Source: Methyloversatilis sp. (GTDB lineage: Bacteria; Pseudomonadota; Gammaproteobacteria; Burkholderiales; Rhodocyclaceae). Taken from it: DNA of 64,000 nucleotides. This document shows positions 25,570 through 32,396 of this stretch, piece by piece (the stretch's first letter is position 1; each line of letters begins with the position of its first letter). The position numbers and the translations under genes were made by a program. The stretch is from assembly GCF_030698125.1 (NCBI RefSeq), contig NZ_JAUYNV010000025.1, positions 62,001 to 126,000 on the forward strand. Reading direction: 5' to 3'. The notes beneath the pieces were generated by a model. It saw nothing but the letters and a program-made list of their open reading frames with translations. It was not told the DNA's origin and searched no databases.

Positions 25570-27003
25570 ATGTATTACGTATCCACCCGCGGCCTCGCGC
25601 CGCAGAAGCACTTCACCGACATCCTGCTGGGCGGCCTGATGGAGGATGGCGGCCTCGCCATGCCTGTGCAGTACCCGAAATTCACGCCGGTCGAACTCGG
25701 TTCGATGCGCGGCATGGATTACCGTCAGCTTGCCTATGCCGTGCTGTCGCGCTTCGCCGACGACCTGCCGTCAGACGACCTGCATGCGCTGATCGACCGC
25801 ACCTATCGGCCCGAGGTTTACTGCAACACGGTGTCCGGCTCAGACGCGCACGACATCACGCCGCTCTACACGCTGGAGCCCGACCTGCACCTGCTCGAAC
25901 TGTCGAACGGACCGACGCTGGCGTTCAAGGACATGGCGATGCAGCTGCTCGGCAACCTGTTCGAGTACGCGCTGGCGAAGAGCGGGGCGCATCTGAACAT
26001 TTTCGGCGCCACCTCCGGCGACACCGGTTCGAGCGCCGAATACGCGATGCGCGGCAAGCGCGGCATCCGCGTGTTCATGCTCAGTCCGCACGGCAAGATG
26101 AGCCGCTTCCAGAGCGCCCAGATGTTCAGCCTGCAGGACCCGAACATTTTCAACATTGCGGTGCGCGGCGTGTTCGACGACTGCCAGGACATGGTGAAGG
26201 CGGTGTCCAACGACCTCGAATTCAAGATGAAGTACCGCATCGGCACCGTCAATTCGATCAACTGGGCGCGCGTGTCGGCCCAGATCGTCTATTACTTCAA
26301 GGGTTACTTCGCCGCGACGACGCGCGATGACCAGCAGGTGAGCTTTACCGTACCGTCGGGCAACTTCGGCAATGTGTGCGCCGGTCACATCGCCCGCATG
26401 ATGGGCCTGCCGATCCGTCATCTGGTGGTGGCCACCAACGAAAACGATGTGCTCGACGAATTTTTCCGCACCGGCGTCTATCGGCCGCGCGGCAATGCGG
26501 AAACGCTGCACACCACCAGCCCGTCGATGGATATTTCCAAGGCGAGCAATTTCGAACGCTTCATCTTCGACCTGACCGGTCGCGACACGGAGCGGGTGAG
26601 GGCGCTGTGGAGCGAAGTCGATCGCGGCCGCCCGTTCGATCTGTCGGGTACCGGGCTGTTCGGCAAGGTCGCATCCGAGTACGGCTTCCAGTCCGGCGCC
26701 AGCAACCATGCCCATCGTCTGGCCACGATGCGGCTGGCCCATGCGCGCTGGGGGCGCGCCATCGACACCCATACCGCCGACGGCCTCAAGGTGGCGCTGG
26801 AGCGACGCGAAGCCGGTGTGCCGATGGTGGTGCTCGAAACCGCACTGCCGGCCAAGTTTTCGGAAACCGTGGTCGAGGCGCTGGGCTGCGAGCCCGTTCG
26901 CCCGCACGGCATGGAGCACCTCGAATCGCTGCCGCAGCGTTACGAGGTGATGGGTACCGACGTGGCCGCCATGAAGGCCTTCATAGCCCGCAACGCCGGT
27001 TGA
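25570..27003 (+). CDS. thrC: Threonine synthase
   Basis: Pyridoxal-phosphate enzyme converting O-phosphohomoserine to threonine. It starts MYYVSTRGLAPQKHF, the family N-terminus (an ATG four codons earlier is possible). The cofactor lysine is in NGPTLAFKDMAMQLLG, and FGATSGDTGSSAEYA is the phosphate-binding region. 477 residues. The antisense HPP gene separates it from hom, so it needs its own promoter; a TAGATT -10-like site at 25489-25494 is a candidate. Confidence 0.96.
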   Translation: MYYVSTRGLAPQKHFTDILLGGLMEDGGLAMPVQYPKFTPVELGSMRGMDYRQLAYAVLSRFADDLPSDDLHALIDRTYRPEVYCNTVSGSDAHDITPLYTLEPDLHLLELSNGPTLAFKDMAMQLLGNLFEYALAKSGAHLNIFGATSGDTGSSAEYAMRGKRGIRVFMLSPHGKMSRFQSAQMFSLQDPNIFNIAVRGVFDDCQDMVKAVSNDLEFKMKYRIGTVNSINWARVSAQIVYYFKGYFAATTRDDQQVSFTVPSGNFGNVCAGHIARMMGLPIRHLVVATNENDVLDEFFRTGVYRPRGNAETLHTTSPSMDISKASNFERFIFDLTGRDTERVRALWSEVDRGRPFDLSGTGLFGKVASEYGFQSGASNHAHRLATMRLAHARWGRAIDTHTADGLKVALERREAGVPMVVLETALPAKFSETVVEALGCEPVRPHGMEHLESLPQRYEVMGTDVAAMKAFIARNAG

Positions 27004-27120
27004 TCTGCAGGAAGGCGGCCTGGGCGCGCGCTGAATCGGGGATCAAGTCCGGTCCGCACGCTGCCGTATACACTGACATCGAATCACATGCGCACCGCGG
27101 TGCGTCACGGAGAACATGTC

Positions 27121-27978
27121 ATGGGTGAGCCGGTGAATTCATCGCTTGAGGCACTGCAGCGGCTGTCAGCGGAACTTGAATCGGGCGACATCGTCTTCCC
27201 GACCAGCATTGACGTGTCGCTGCGCATCCGGCAGGCGCTCGAGAACCCCGATATCAATGTCAATGAGGTCTGCCGGCTGGTTGGCGCCGAGCCGGTGCTC
27301 AGCGCGAAAGCCCTGCGCCTGGCGAACTCGGTGGCCTACAACCGCAGCGGCAACGAAATCACCGACGTCCGCACCGCGGTGACGCGCGTCGGAACCGAGC
27401 CGATCCGCATGCTCACGATGTCGCTCATCGTCCGCCAGATGGTGGACGCGCGCGCCGACGAACGTCTGCGCGTCCTGACGCATGACCTGTGGCGGCACAC
27501 CATTCACGTTTCGGCACTGAGCTACGTCATCGCACGTCGCCTTTCGCGGCTCAACGCCGACACGGCCATGTTCGCCGGTCTGGTCCATGAGATCGGCCAG
27601 TTCTACCTGCTGGCCCGCGCATCGGCCTTTCCTGCGCTGCTGCAGCGCGAAGCCGAACTGGGCGGGCTGATGTTCAGTTTCAGCCAGAGCGTCGGCCGCG
27701 CCGTGCTCGAATCGCTCAAGGTACCGGAACAGGTCATCGCTGCCGTCGATGCACCGATGTTCGAGGGCGCGGTCGTGCCGCCCCGATCGCTGGGCGATGT
27801 ACTGTTCCTCGCCGAAAGCATGGCGGCATTCCCGAATCCGTTCACCACGCTGTCGCCGGAAGAGGATGGTCTGCTTGCCGACGCGGCGACCTCGGACATC
27901 GACAATGAAACGCTGGAAGCGGTGGTCGCTGAATCGAAGGAAGAAATCGATTCCATCATCGCCACACTGCAGATATAA
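27121..27978 (+). CDS. HDOD domain signalling protein
   Basis: A 285-residue protein with an HDOD domain: VFPTSIDVSLRIRQALENPDINVNEVCRLVGAEPVLSAKALRLANS is cut here into its recognisable parts, FPTSIDV, ISLRIRQ-like helix and LRLANSVAYN, followed by AGLVHEIGQFYLLARA. HDOD proteins resemble HD phosphohydrolases without the full catalytic set and often act in stress, motility or cyclic-di-GMP signalling; the specific role here is unknown. ATG at MGEPVNSS is chosen over a start 11 codons earlier because a GGAG site lies close upstream. Confidence 0.88.
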   Translation: MGEPVNSSLEALQRLSAELESGDIVFPTSIDVSLRIRQALENPDINVNEVCRLVGAEPVLSAKALRLANSVAYNRSGNEITDVRTAVTRVGTEPIRMLTMSLIVRQMVDARADERLRVLTHDLWRHTIHVSALSYVIARRLSRLNADTAMFAGLVHEIGQFYLLARASAFPALLQREAELGGLMFSFSQSVGRAVLESLKVPEQVIAAVDAPMFEGAVVPPRSLGDVLFLAESMAAFPNPFTTLSPEEDGLLADAATSDIDNETLEAVVAESKEEIDSIIATLQI

Positions 27979-27985
27979 GGGCTTG

Positions 27986-28130
27986 GGGTCTGTTCGCACT
28001 TGATTCGTGCGTCACACGTTGCCCTTGGGCAACCCGCAGGGCCTGACGGCCAGGCAGGCGGCGTCGGTGCGCCTCGCCCGGCGACGCGCTGGCCGCACGC
28101 ATGATGTACGATTCAAATGCGAACAGACCC
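27986..28130. mobile_element. 145-bp MITE-like inverted-repeat element
   Basis: Bounded by a perfect 13-bp terminal inverted repeat, GGGTCTGTTCGCA and its complement. The complementarity continues imperfectly inward for about ten more bases. Inside are a perfect hairpin GTTGCCC/GGGCAAC (28018-28033) and a smaller GCCTG/CAGGC stem (28041-28055). It has no coding capacity. A clear target duplication is not seen, but the flanks share an imperfect TAAnGnCTTGGG match (27976 and 28131). This is the form of a non-autonomous transposable element or an extragenic palindromic repeat. Confidence 0.7.
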
Positions 28131-28157
28131 TAAAGTCTTGGGCCGCGCAGTCGTTAA
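28131..28157 (+). promoter_or_regulatory. Candidate sigma-28 (FliA) promoter
   Basis: TAAAGTCT, then 11 bases, then GTCGTTAA. Against the flagellar sigma-28 consensus TAAAGTTT-N11-GCCGATAA this matches 7 of 8 and 6 of 8 with the exact spacing. Transcription would begin near 28165, just before the riboswitch aptamer. The 145-bp element ends at the base immediately before the -35 box. Confidence 0.6.
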
Positions 28158-28177
28158 ATGATGTGACGACATATTGA

Positions 28178-28282
28178 AGCTGAACCAGGGCAAACCCATC
28201 GAAAGGTGGCGACGCAAAGTTTCCGGTCTACCGGGTGCCCAGCGCCCCACGACAGCGGGGCCGCCGTGATGCTGTACCAGGC
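28178..28282 (+). ncRNA. Class I cyclic-di-GMP riboswitch (GEMM-I)
   Basis: The leader carries the GEMM-I signature in order: CAGGGCAAACC (28186-28196), a CCATC-GAAA-GGTGG hairpin with the GNRA loop at 28201-28204, then GACGCAAAG (28211-28219) and CCGG (28223-28226), followed by a second, longer stem. This pattern is well known from the Vibrio Vc2 aptamer. It lies about 75 bases before the DUF1631 gene. The 3' boundary is approximate. The gene control mode is not certain; possible pairings are given in the findings. Confidence 0.88.
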
Positions 28283-28317
28283 CTCGCGTCCGGTCCTGAC
28301 TTTGCGCCCCGTTTCAG

Positions 28318-28349
28318 CCTTTACCGACCGCCGTGCGCGGCCGCAAAGG
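28318..28349 (+). promoter_or_regulatory. Possible Shine-Dalgarno-sequestering hairpin
   Basis: CCTTT at 28318-28322 can pair with the AAAGG ribosome-binding site at 28345-28349, with an inner GCCG-TGCG-CGGC stem at 28330-28341. This would hide the start region of the DUF1631 gene and fits a translational expression platform for the riboswitch. The fold is deduced by eye. Confidence 0.4.
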
Positions 28350-28355
28350 TGAATC

Positions 28356-30722
28356 ATGAGCGCTGTACCCCTGCCGAAAAAGCCTGCCGTACCGCCTGAA
28401 CGAGGGCGGGTGATCAGCGACTGCCGGGATTTCACGATCCGGCGCCTGCGTGATTCGCTGCGCGGCATGCTGGAAAAAATCGAAGAAGATCTGGTTGCCC
28501 GGGCCGAGGCAGAGCTCGACCGTGACCAGCGCAACCTCTACATGTTCACCTGCGGCAAGGCCCGCCAGCAGTGGGCCGGCATCGAACAAACCTTCATCGA
28601 CCACCTGACCCGCTATTTCGACGCGCGTGTACGCGGCGAGCCGGTCGAATCATCGCGATCAGCAGTACCGACGTCGCTCGACGAACTCAGCCTGGTGGGC
28701 GAAGACGACCTGACGCAGGATCTGGCCGTTCATGAACTGACCCGCAAGCTGAAGGAACACTGCGACGAGGAGCTGTTCGGCGTCGAACAGCGTCTGGGCT
28801 CGCTGCTCGGCAAGTCGGATCCGACCGATCAGGACAATCCGCTCGGCACCGAGGGGGTCGCCAAGGCGCTGCGCGCCGCGTGCGAAGAAGTCGATGCCAG
28901 CGTGCAGATGCGATTGGTGCTGCTGCAGTCGCTTGAAACGCAGATTTCAAGCGAACTTTCAAAGCTTTACCAGGACCTGAACATACGGTTGCAGCGGCAG
29001 AACGTACTGCCGGGCCTGCGTCGCGGCTTCCGCCGCAACGTCGGTGCACGTGCCGGCGTTGCGGGCGCAGCGCAGGGACAGGGCGCCGGCGGCGATCAGA
29101 CGGGCATGACCAGCGGTTTTGCGTCTTCAGCCGGTGCGCAGGGCGGCTTTCCTGCGATAGGCGGTGCCCGGGACACGGGTTTCTCCGCATCGATGCCCGG
29201 CTTCGGCATGTCGTCGGTGAATGGCGGCTTCGCAGAACAGGCTGCGTTCAGCGCTGCTGCCGAGGCAGACGGCGACATCTACGCCATGCTGTCGCAACTG
29301 GTCCAGGGGCAGATGGCGGCGCAGGGCATTGCGCTGCCGCCGATCGGCGCTGCCGAAGCGAATCCGGCCGCGCTGGCGTCACCCTTCGTGTTCGAGGCAC
29401 TCAGCGCGCTGCAGTCCGACCCCGACCTTTCGATGCCGGCCGCTGCGTCCTGCAACCTCGGCATACCGCCCAATCTGCTGCGCAATTTCCGCACCTCCGA
29501 GCTGGGCCGCCATCTCGGACAATTCGATGCGATCACGGTCGACATCGTCGCCATGCTGTTCGACCTCATCTTCGACGACGCGGATATCGCCGATCCGATC
29601 AAGGCGCTGGTCGGCCGGCTGCAGATTCCGCTGGTCAAGGTGGCCATGCTGGACCGCAGCTTCTTCTCCAGCAAGGCGCATCCGGCGCGCCGACTGCTCG
29701 ACCTGATTTCCAGTTCGATGATGCGCTGGGGTCGCGACGTCGGACACGAAGACCCGCTGTACATCAAGCTGGCTGAGATCGTCGACCGCATCCTGCGCGA
29801 TTTCGACCGCGATCTGAGCCTGTTCGAGGCCTGCAGCGACGACCTGCGCGCCTTCGTCACCGAACTGGAAGCCGACGAGACGCAGCGTGCCGAAGCGGCG
29901 GCGCTGATCGCCAGCGCGCGCGAGCAGGAACGGCTGCGCCGCGAAGATGCGCGGCGCGCCGCCGACGACGAAATTGATGACCGGCTGCGCAAACCGCTGC
30001 CCGGCGTGGTGCAAAGTCTGCTCGATGGCGTATGGCGCCGGCTGCTGCGCAAGCATGTCGACACCGGTCCGGATGCGGCCGTCGATTACCAGCAGGCGCT
30101 CGCCACCATCGACGAACTGATCTGGAGTGTGCAGGCCAAGGCCGATGCGGACGAACGCCGCGCGCTCGTGGTCGCGCTGCCCGGTCTGCTGCGCCGCCTC
30201 AACCAGGGCTTCGATCTGGCGGGCGCCCATCCGGCCGACAAGCTGATGCTGCTCAACGGCCTGTTCGATCTGCACGCGCAGTGGATCAAGCCCGGTGCGG
30301 CGACGGCGGCACCGGCCGTCGAACAGTGGGTGCCGGACGCGTACTCCGCGAATGACGATGTGCCGGCGCCCGAAGTGGTCAGCGAGCATGTCGAACAGGA
30401 CGGGCTGGAACTCAATGACATTTCGTTGAACCTGCCGTCACCGCTCGACATCCAGGAGCAGGACCGCGTATTCGAACTCAAGCGCGGCGACTGGATCGAG
30501 TTCAGGCAGACCGACGGCAATTTCGCGCGCATGCGCCTGAACTGGGTCAGCCCGCAACGCGGCATCTATCTGTTTACGAATCCCGGTTCGACCCGGGCCA
30601 CCTCGATCGCGCCCGACGCGCTGGCGCTGCAACTGGCCAACGGCGAGGCGCGCGTGGTCAACAACGAGCCGATGTTCGACCGGGCGGTCAGTCAGGCGCT
30701 TGGCCAGCAACGCGTGCGCTGA
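28356..30722 (+). CDS. DUF1631 family protein
   Basis: A 788-residue protein of the DUF1631 family, sometimes mislabelled thymidine phosphorylase. The N-terminal part is helical and acidic; residues about 225-310 form a Gly/Ala/Gln-rich linker; the middle has conserved helices (LDLISSSMMRWGRDVGHEDPLYIKLAEIV) and a charged coiled-coil (ASAREQERLRREDARRAADDE). The last ~100 residues (FELKRGDWIEFRQ, LNWVSPQRGIYLFTN) look beta-rich and PilZ-like, but without an obvious RxxxR motif. The upstream cyclic-di-GMP riboswitch and sigma-28-like promoter suggest a role in motility or attachment; this is inference. Confidence 0.88.
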   Translation: MSAVPLPKKPAVPPERGRVISDCRDFTIRRLRDSLRGMLEKIEEDLVARAEAELDRDQRNLYMFTCGKARQQWAGIEQTFIDHLTRYFDARVRGEPVESSRSAVPTSLDELSLVGEDDLTQDLAVHELTRKLKEHCDEELFGVEQRLGSLLGKSDPTDQDNPLGTEGVAKALRAACEEVDASVQMRLVLLQSLETQISSELSKLYQDLNIRLQRQNVLPGLRRGFRRNVGARAGVAGAAQGQGAGGDQTGMTSGFASSAGAQGGFPAIGGARDTGFSASMPGFGMSSVNGGFAEQAAFSAAAEADGDIYAMLSQLVQGQMAAQGIALPPIGAAEANPAALASPFVFEALSALQSDPDLSMPAAASCNLGIPPNLLRNFRTSELGRHLGQFDAITVDIVAMLFDLIFDDADIADPIKALVGRLQIPLVKVAMLDRSFFSSKAHPARRLLDLISSSMMRWGRDVGHEDPLYIKLAEIVDRILRDFDRDLSLFEACSDDLRAFVTELEADETQRAEAAALIASAREQERLRREDARRAADDEIDDRLRKPLPGVVQSLLDGVWRRLLRKHVDTGPDAAVDYQQALATIDELIWSVQAKADADERRALVVALPGLLRRLNQGFDLAGAHPADKLMLLNGLFDLHAQWIKPGAATAAPAVEQWVPDAYSANDDVPAPEVVSEHVEQDGLELNDISLNLPSPLDIQEQDRVFELKRGDWIEFRQTDGNFARMRLNWVSPQRGIYLFTNPGSTRATSIAPDALALQLANGEARVVNNEPMFDRAVSQALGQQRVR

Positions 30723-30817
30723 GCCGCCGGTCAGATCGGCAACGTCGAACGCCGGCGGCGCAGGCAGCCATCAAGGACTGGTAAGCTCTCGGCCAGTCTG
30801 GACCGACGGAGTGTTCG

Positions 30818-31360
30818 ATGCTTATTGACCGCCACGGATCATCGCTGCTGCTGATCGACATGCAGGAGCGACTGTTGCCCGCAATGGATGACGCCGGGCG
30901 TCTGCTCGACAATGTTGTGTGGATGGTGCGCATCGCCCAGCGCCTGTCGGTGCCGGTTTCGATCTGCGAGCAGAATCCGAAAGGTCTGGGCGCGACGGTG
31001 CAGGCACTGCGCGACCTCGTGCCGGCGCACGCCATTGTGCCCAAGATGAATTTTTCCTGCGTGACCGATGGCTGCCTGAACACGGCGGCCGAGCTGCAGC
31101 GGCCCCAGGTCGTGATCTGCGGCACCGAAGCGCATATCTGCGTACTGCAGAGCGCACTGGACCTGCAGTCCAGCGGCAAGCAGGTGTTTGTTGTCGCCGA
31201 CTGCGTCGCGTCACGCGACCCGTCCAACCGCCTGGTCGCGCTCGATCGCATGCGTCAGCACGGCGTGATCGTGGTGTCGCGCGAGATGGTGGCGTTCGAA
31301 TGGCTGGGCGCGGCAGGGTCGGACGAATTCCGCGAAATCAGCCGGACATTCCTGCGCTAG
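30818..31360 (+). CDS. Isochorismatase-family hydrolase
   Basis: A 180-residue cysteine hydrolase of the isochorismatase superfamily. The catalytic triad is visible: Asp14 in LLIDMQE, Lys76 in VPKMNFSC and Cys108 in GTEAHICVLQ. It resembles the YcaC-like group of uncertain substrate rather than true isochorismatases, since no siderophore synthesis genes adjoin. Its 3' end overlaps the convergent oxidase gene by 23 bases. Confidence 0.9.
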   Translation: MLIDRHGSSLLLIDMQERLLPAMDDAGRLLDNVVWMVRIAQRLSVPVSICEQNPKGLGATVQALRDLVPAHAIVPKMNFSCVTDGCLNTAAELQRPQVVICGTEAHICVLQSALDLQSSGKQVFVVADCVASRDPSNRLVALDRMRQHGVIVVSREMVAFEWLGAAGSDEFREISRTFLR

Positions 31361-32396
31361 CCGCCACGGTGGCATGGCCGCAGAGCGCCATGCTTTGTTC
31401 CAGCTCGTCGCGCAACAGCCGCATGACGTGCGCGACGCCGAGCGCACCGTTGCCGGCCAGCCCCCAGATGCAAGGGCGCCCGATCAGCACTGCTCGTGCA
31501 CCCGCCACCAGTGCGCGATGTACGTCACTGCCGCTGTCGATGCCGCTGTCCAGCAACACCGGCACACCCGGCCCCACGGCCGACACGATGGCCGGCAGCA
31601 TCGACAGACTGGCCGGTGCGCCGGCCAGCACGCGCCCGCCGTGGTTGGACACGACAAGCCCGTCGCAGCCCCGTTGCACCGCACGTACCGCGTCGTCCGG
31701 ATGCAGCACCCCCTTGAGCAGCAAAGGCAGCGACGTCCGGTCGCGCAGCCAGGCCAGGTCGTCCCAGGTCGGTGCCTGCGCCATCCATCCGTCGAACACC
31801 TGACTCTGGCCGTTGCCGATGGCGACCGGACGCACCGGTGCATCGAGATTGACCGCGCCCACCTGTGCCGGCAGCGCCAGCGCCGTCGGCTTGACCGGCG
31901 CATCGACCGTGAACACCAGCGCGCGGACGCCGGCAGCGATCGCGCGATCGAGCAGGCGGTGCGTCGCCTCGCGGCTGCCTTGCCAGTAAAGCTGGAACCA
32001 GGGCGCGCGCTCGGCGGCGCGGACAATGGCGTCGAACGGCTGGCTGGCCAGCGAGCTCATGACCATCTGTCCGTCCTGCGCATTCGCCGCCATCGCGCTC
32101 GCCTGTTCGCCGTCCGGGTGATACAGGCGCTGATAGGCGAGCGGGGCGAGCAGCATCGGATGGCCGAGCACCTCGCCGAACAGTTCGATGCGGGTATGGC
32201 CGCCGCGCACGTCGGTCAGCGGGCGCGGCGTCAGCGGCGCGGCATCGAACGCTGCGCGGTTGGCGCGCCCGCACGGCGTGTCGCGGCCGTCGTCGAGGTA
32301 GTGCCAGAGCTCGGGGTGCAGGCGCGTGCGCGCCAGTTCGCGATAGTCGGCGATGGAACGCGGCGCGGGCAGGGTCACGTTCAGGTGTCGCCCCAT
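31338..32396 (-). CDS. FMN-dependent alpha-hydroxy-acid oxidase
   Basis: A 352-residue member of the lactate/glycolate oxidase family, which oxidises 2-hydroxy acids using FMN. It has LLAPLAYQRLYHPDGE, the FMN-binding TVDAPVKPT and LLLKGVL segments, and the catalytic SNHGGR motif followed by LLDSGIDSGSDV and LIGRP. Length and the lack of a long loop suggest a soluble enzyme. Substrate unknown. It overlaps the PKHD gene by 16 bases; a GTG six codons in would leave no overlap. Confidence 0.88.
   Translation of the reverse strand: MGRHLNVTLPAPRSIADYRELARTRLHPELWHYLDDGRDTPCGRANRAAFDAAPLTPRPLTDVRGGHTRIELFGEVLGHPMLLAPLAYQRLYHPDGEQASAMAANAQDGQMVMSSLASQPFDAIVRAAERAPWFQLYWQGSREATHRLLDRAIAAGVRALVFTVDAPVKPTALALPAQVGAVNLDAPVRPVAIGNGQSQVFDGWMAQAPTWDDLAWLRDRTSLPLLLKGVLHPDDAVRAVQRGCDGLVVSNHGGRVLAGAPASLSMLPAIVSAVGPGVPVLLDSGIDSGSDVHRALVAGARAVLIGRPCIWGLAGNGALGVAHVMRLLRDELEQSMALCGHATVAASAGMSG

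Follow-up and report, generated by a model that had tools for sequence, protein, structure and literature searches.

When, and at which level of c-di-GMP, does a Methyloversatilis cell make its DUF1631 protein? The question is raised by a locus in the window (the whole stretch of 64,000 nucleotides of DNA analysed here), for which a preliminary description had proposed a sigma-28-like promoter, a cyclic-di-GMP riboswitch and a DUF1631 gene in one chain of control. Computation places on the plus strand, in this order, a FliA (sigma-28) promoter box (28131-28157), a c-di-GMP-I (GEMM-I) aptamer (28179-28268, RF01051) and a DUF1631 gene encoding 788 aa (28356-30722, PF07793). The box consists of the -35 box TAAAGTCT (28131-28138), an 11-nt gap and the -10 box GTCGTTAA (28150-28157), and its letters, TAAAGTCT-N11-GTCGTTAA, are exactly those that had been described. 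The gap from the -10 box to the first aptamer base is 21 nt, with a predicted transcription start on the plus strand at about 28164-28166 (∼7 nt 3' of the -10 box). The leader of the DUF1631 gene is ∼190 nt long, and includes an 87-nt linker between aptamer and gene, in which an AAAGG box (28345-28349) lies 6 nt 5' of the ATG.

The promoter was scored with a FliA matrix trained on 22 flagellin promoters from the genome's own GTDB family (a clear site was seen in 23 of 30 flagellin upstream regions and not in the other 7, and L167, with a mis-registered gap, was dropped). The window box scores 24.9, inside the range of the training promoters (19.6-30.7), and is the top matrix site of the 64-kb window on both strands, the next independent site scoring 14.0. 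A set of 40 first-order Markov sequences, each also 64 kb long, contains 9 sites scoring at least 15 and none scoring at least 20 (best 17.4). The genome encodes a fliA gene (TIGR02479, 273.6 bits vs a curated cut-off of 189.6), and a genome search with a sigma-28 consensus, allowing up to 3 mismatches, gave 20 matches vs 7 for the reversed pattern. Some of the consensus matches precede a flagellin gene (identified by Pfam) and MotA-like and chemoreceptor-like genes (named from their translations), and many others precede genes without an evident tie to motility. The segment 28131-28157 is a predicted FliA promoter, and the gene behind it would be expected to depend on FliA.

The covariance search bears out the proposed GEMM-I aptamer, with an RF01051 match at 28179-28268 on the plus strand (57.2 bits vs a gathering cut-off of 35, E 1.5e-8, model positions 1-87 of 87), and no second match was found in the genome. 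The window aptamer has a G at position 11, which is invariant in 39 of 39 aligned aptamers and which we take to be G20 of Vc2, in the column that sets c-di-GMP over cGAMP. The Vc2 G20A mutant is bound to 3',3'-cGAMP in the available text of PMC6274999. Judged from its letters, the window aptamer is predicted to bind c-di-GMP.

The product is indeed a DUF1631 protein (PF07793, 519.4 bits vs a gathering cut-off of 33.7, residues 14-783), and this is the only such match in the genome. The structure model (mean pLDDT 80.5) contains long helical regions, a low-confidence and probably disordered linker (residues 225-305), and a small C-terminal beta domain that looks Tudor/SH3-like. The C-terminus had been described as PilZ-like, and this part of the reading is not supported. 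PilZ domains carry the motif RxxxR followed by [DN]xSxxG, and the pair in this order occurs in 0 of 40 DUF1631 C-termini (RxxxR alone in 25, [DN]xSxxG in 1). The Pfam PilZ model gives no match up to E 10 in five C-termini (that of the window and those of 4 of the 39 relatives), which matched just DUF1631 and one weak PilY2 row. The window protein also matches the PacR family (NCBIfam NF058594) over residues 18-778, at 219.9 bits, far under the curated cut-off of 1200. In the literature searched, no paper evidently about PacR was found, and DUF1631 is named in just three open-access papers, in whose available text it figures as an entry in gene or protein lists.

The arrangement is kept throughout the genus. 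The order of promoter, aptamer and DUF1631 gene recurs in 13 of the 13 Methyloversatilis genomes examined, with similar spacing between aptamer and gene, and the window protein shares up to 97% identity (718 columns) with those of named Methyloversatilis loci. The FliA matrix score is 19.1-25.3 with an 11-nt gap in 12 of the 13 genomes; the remaining one has a 12-nt gap and scores 21.9 (8.0 with a forced gap of 11). Between the -10 box and the aptamer lie 21 nt in 11 genomes; of the other two, one has 23 nt and one, which carries an insertion, has 40. An alignment of all 13 shows both promoter cores (-35 and -10) conserved, in contrast to the diverged spacer and 5' flank.

The surroundings of the locus include several further features. 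The gene for an HDOD protein (27088-27978) ends just 5' of the locus, and like DNA lies upstream of most leaders in the genus. A 145-bp insert (27986-28130) abuts the -35 box; it is MITE- or REP-like, with imperfect terminal inverted repeats (GGGTCTGTTCGCA...TGCGAACAGACCC), and has five other partial matches in the genome. G156 (L103) and G153 (L092) have insert-like DNA in the corresponding position, and the other aligned genus leaders contain at most short pieces of it. One or two extra c-di-GMP-I riboswitches are present in 9 of the 13 genus genomes, the window's own not among them (L018, L082-L087, L089, L094), and in 8 of these 9 one extra riboswitch leads the gene of a large protein that, judged from its translation, appears to be secreted. 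A FliA-like box before those eight starts 36-38 nt 5' of the aptamer and scores 6.3-16.0.

Beyond the genus, 150 genomes of the GTDB family were sampled, with RF01051 matches in 75 and DUF1631 matches in 74. The pairing compared 142 riboswitch places with 85 of 110 DUF1631 rows; the 25 rows left out are mostly second fragments, and the rest come from four genomes that have no riboswitch row, namely G057 and G143 (second genes) and G033 and G092 (their only rows). The 85 rows correspond to 82 scored loci, two tandem pairs being counted once and one short fragment omitted. In 21 genomes the start of a DUF1631 match is preceded, at 125-398 nt and on its own strand, by an aptamer, and 8 of these 21 aptamer-led loci contain a FliA site scoring at least 15 that starts 44-86 nt 5' of the aptamer. 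Among the 61 family DUF1631 loci that have no aptamer, 3 contain such a site in the 400 nt before the profile start. In G053 (L165) and G106 (L166), tandem DUF1631 matches lie behind a single riboswitch.

A comparison of the leaders before DUF1631 genes in related genomes covered the best 80 of 505 DUF1631 relatives (genome contigs). Here 51 of the 80 loci have an aptamer on the strand of the gene, a fraction that describes the nearest relatives and should not be extended to the family at large; the only remaining aptamer match among the 80 is a single 14.9-bit minus-strand one (E 0.94). All 17 of the 51 aptamers that were given to Rfam's own model pass its cut-off. A FliA site scoring at least 15 precedes 22 of the 51 aptamer-led loci (13 of the 42 outside the genus), starting 44-69 nt 5' of the aptamer, whereas 60 rounds of dinucleotide shuffling of the 51 leaders gave a mean of 0.4 and a maximum of 3 FliA-positive leaders. 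The proposed reading of promoter, riboswitch and DUF1631 gene as one unit is thus supported beyond a single genome, minus its PilZ component. The other 29 of the 51 aptamer-led loci have no FliA match scoring at least 15, so FliA control is not general. Among the 29 loci of the set that lack a detected aptamer (they include L207 and L254, with hardly any sequence upstream, and L266, with 95 nt of it), 4 have a FliA site. FliA-like sites scoring 19.3-21.1 lie upstream of L255, L262, L238 and L239, which are without a detected aptamer, a hint of flagellar control there.

The aptamer precedes DUF1631 in genomes labelled Rhodocyclales, Thiobacillaceae, Gallionellaceae and Hydrogenophilales. On a rough tree of 80 rows (79 of the 80 loci plus the window), the aptamer requires at least 12 changes and the FliA site at least 8; these counts are rough, and the long branches of L219, L248, L262 and L211 may reflect a wrong reading frame. 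As far as sequence comparison can tell, the link between aptamer and DUF1631 is the wider feature, and the putative FliA site occurs in several lineages. As controls, 28 of the 121 family aptamers that do not lead DUF1631 were scanned, and 2 have a FliA site scoring at least 15 in the 200 nt upstream (L005, 19.2; L009, 15.0). In the genus, such a site (15.7-16.0) lies before 3 of 10 additional aptamers, and weaker matches recur at 36-38 nt. The pairing of FliA and GEMM-I is thus not exclusive to DUF1631. The family c-di-GMP-I riboswitches L003, L005 and L006 lead subtilase-like secreted proteins (named from translation), and the FliA-like site of L005 (19.2) starts 125 nt 5' of its aptamer.

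The leader between aptamer and start codon contains competing pairings, for which fold statistics were computed on 11 distinct genus leaders. In the consensus minimum-energy fold, the aptamer 5' strand (GCUGAACCAGGGC, 28179-28191) pairs with a strand just 5' of the ribosome-binding-site hairpin; judged from this fold and from pair counts, it could pair with the anti-aptamer strand (UUUGCGCCCCGUUUCAGC, 28301-28318) in place of the aptamer core. The hairpin itself (28318-28349, plus strand) joins CCUUU (28318-28322) to AAAGG (28345-28349), with an inner stem between them. Its cells are paired in 89.3% of cases vs 27-58% when the strands are slid, and two pairs are changed on both sides. Of 500 column shuffles, 4 attain its covariation score and 185 its number of both-side-changed pairs; in 5 of the 11 leaders one inner pair is not formed. 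The long-range helix is paired in 88.3% of cells vs 30-51% when slid, with one pair changed on both sides, and its covariation is matched by 139 of 500 column shuffles, little covariation being expected because the 5' side is fixed by the aptamer. The whole window leader is no more stable than its shuffles (z 0.26). Across leaders inside and outside the genus, the long-range helix has z < -2 against mononucleotide shuffles in 11 of 51 (5/11 in the genus), and this patchiness outside the genus suggests that the expression platform probably differs among clades.

When the aptamer fold is imposed, the accessibility of the SD (AAAGG) in the window leader goes from 0.47 to 0.06. Among the 11 leaders it goes down in 7 (in one by 0.02), up by 0.01-0.03 in 3, and is equal in 1, in which the SD was guessed. 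The two states do not wholly exclude each other, since in some imposed folds (G150, G154) the outer part of the long-range helix persists around the aptamer. No U-tract (intrinsic) terminator was found on the plus strand of 27000-31500, and terminator-like signals by a simple criterion of our own occur in 3 of the 51 relatives' leaders, which points to translational control. On these fold models the switch would be translational and probably OFF at high c-di-GMP, the direction being weakly supported.

The reading that we favour, with modest confidence, is that DUF1631 is a late flagellar (FliA-class) gene with a c-di-GMP-I riboswitch leader that acts on translation and is OFF at high c-di-GMP. 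FliA would make the DUF1631 transcript just while the flagellar cascade is active. When c-di-GMP is low, the leader's 5' strand and the anti-aptamer strand would pair beside the ribosome-binding-site hairpin, weakening sequestration; at high c-di-GMP, the aptamer would fold, the anti-aptamer strand would be freed, and the hairpin would cover AAAGG. The DUF1631 protein would be produced in swimming cells and shut off with rising c-di-GMP, a motility-phase role that would tie the locus to the swim/attach switch, as the preliminary description had suggested.

The same FliA transcript could serve an ON switch, in which c-di-GMP raises translation and DUF1631 appears at the onset of settling as a flagellar brake or an adhesion factor. 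This we hold to be unlikely, with a real share of the probability nonetheless: E. coli ycgR, a FliA-class gene for a flagellar brake at high c-di-GMP, is a logical precedent, and the 4 of 11 leaders in which SD accessibility does not fall are compatible with it. A GEMM-I-like aptamer of pilM that senses cGAMP is likewise an ON switch in the available text of PMC9262584. The loss of SD accessibility when the aptamer is imposed, steep in the window leader and present in 7 of 11, argues for the opposite direction. The leader could also act mainly by Rho-dependent premature termination and not by ribosome access. The absence of an intrinsic terminator-like site on the plus strand of 27000-31500 and the ∼190-nt length of the leader would suit this mechanism, and the ribosome-binding-site hairpin kept in the genus speaks against it; on balance it is improbable.

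The promoter may also be questioned, since the aptamer-led loci that have no FliA match are probably served by other promoters. The riboswitch would then be real, while a sigma-70 or other promoter would work here and the FliA matches would be relics or would serve just some members of the clade. The FliA box is nevertheless kept in all 13 genus genomes amid diverged flanks, its frequency before aptamer-led loci far exceeds that in shuffled leaders, and no sigma-70-like site was found by a simple consensus scan of 27000-31500; we hold this explanation to be improbable.

The main interest of the locus lies in the protein. Pfam assigns no function to DUF1631, and a recurring leader with a sigma-28 promoter and a c-di-GMP riboswitch supplies strong functional context. 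The leader predicts the timing of DUF1631 production, which is testable in cultured methylotrophs, and marks the protein as a candidate, open to experiment, for a part in the choice between swimming and settling. It is possible, though we would stop short of calling it probable, that DUF1631 proteins form an unrecognised family of effectors which, in Betaproteobacteria, serve the switch from motile to sessile life, behind a two-input gate (the late flagellar program and the c-di-GMP level), with the Tudor/SH3-like domain contacting an RNA or protein partner. The aptamer, the promoter and DUF1631 are each of known kinds, and the novelty lies in the placing of a GEMM-I riboswitch between a late flagellar promoter and DUF1631 as its recurring client, a combination for which no report was found in the literature searched (open-access, mostly without subscription papers). 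This arrangement places c-di-GMP sensing downstream of the late flagellar promoter, not at the master regulator.

Three known systems are close to this locus in different respects. E. coli ycgR is, like the window gene, FliA-class and connected to c-di-GMP, but YcgR itself binds c-di-GMP as a PilZ protein, whereas at the window locus sensing is predicted for the RNA, and the protein has no PilZ motif pair. Cd1 of Clostridioides difficile, a c-di-GMP-I riboswitch located before the flgB operon, is likewise linked to motility. The available text of PMC9262584 describes it as a transcriptional OFF switch. Cd1 acts on an early flagellar operon via a terminator, whereas here the aptamer lies behind a late FliA-type promoter and a terminator was not seen. 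Vc2 of Vibrio cholerae, called a translational OFF switch in the same available text (PMC9262584), has the same aptamer by covariance model (GEMM-I, RF01051), and control at the window locus is likely translational as well. Unlike Vc2, the Methyloversatilis leader has a DUF1631 client, a FliA-type promoter, and an anti-aptamer strand and ribosome-binding-site hairpin of the genus's own.
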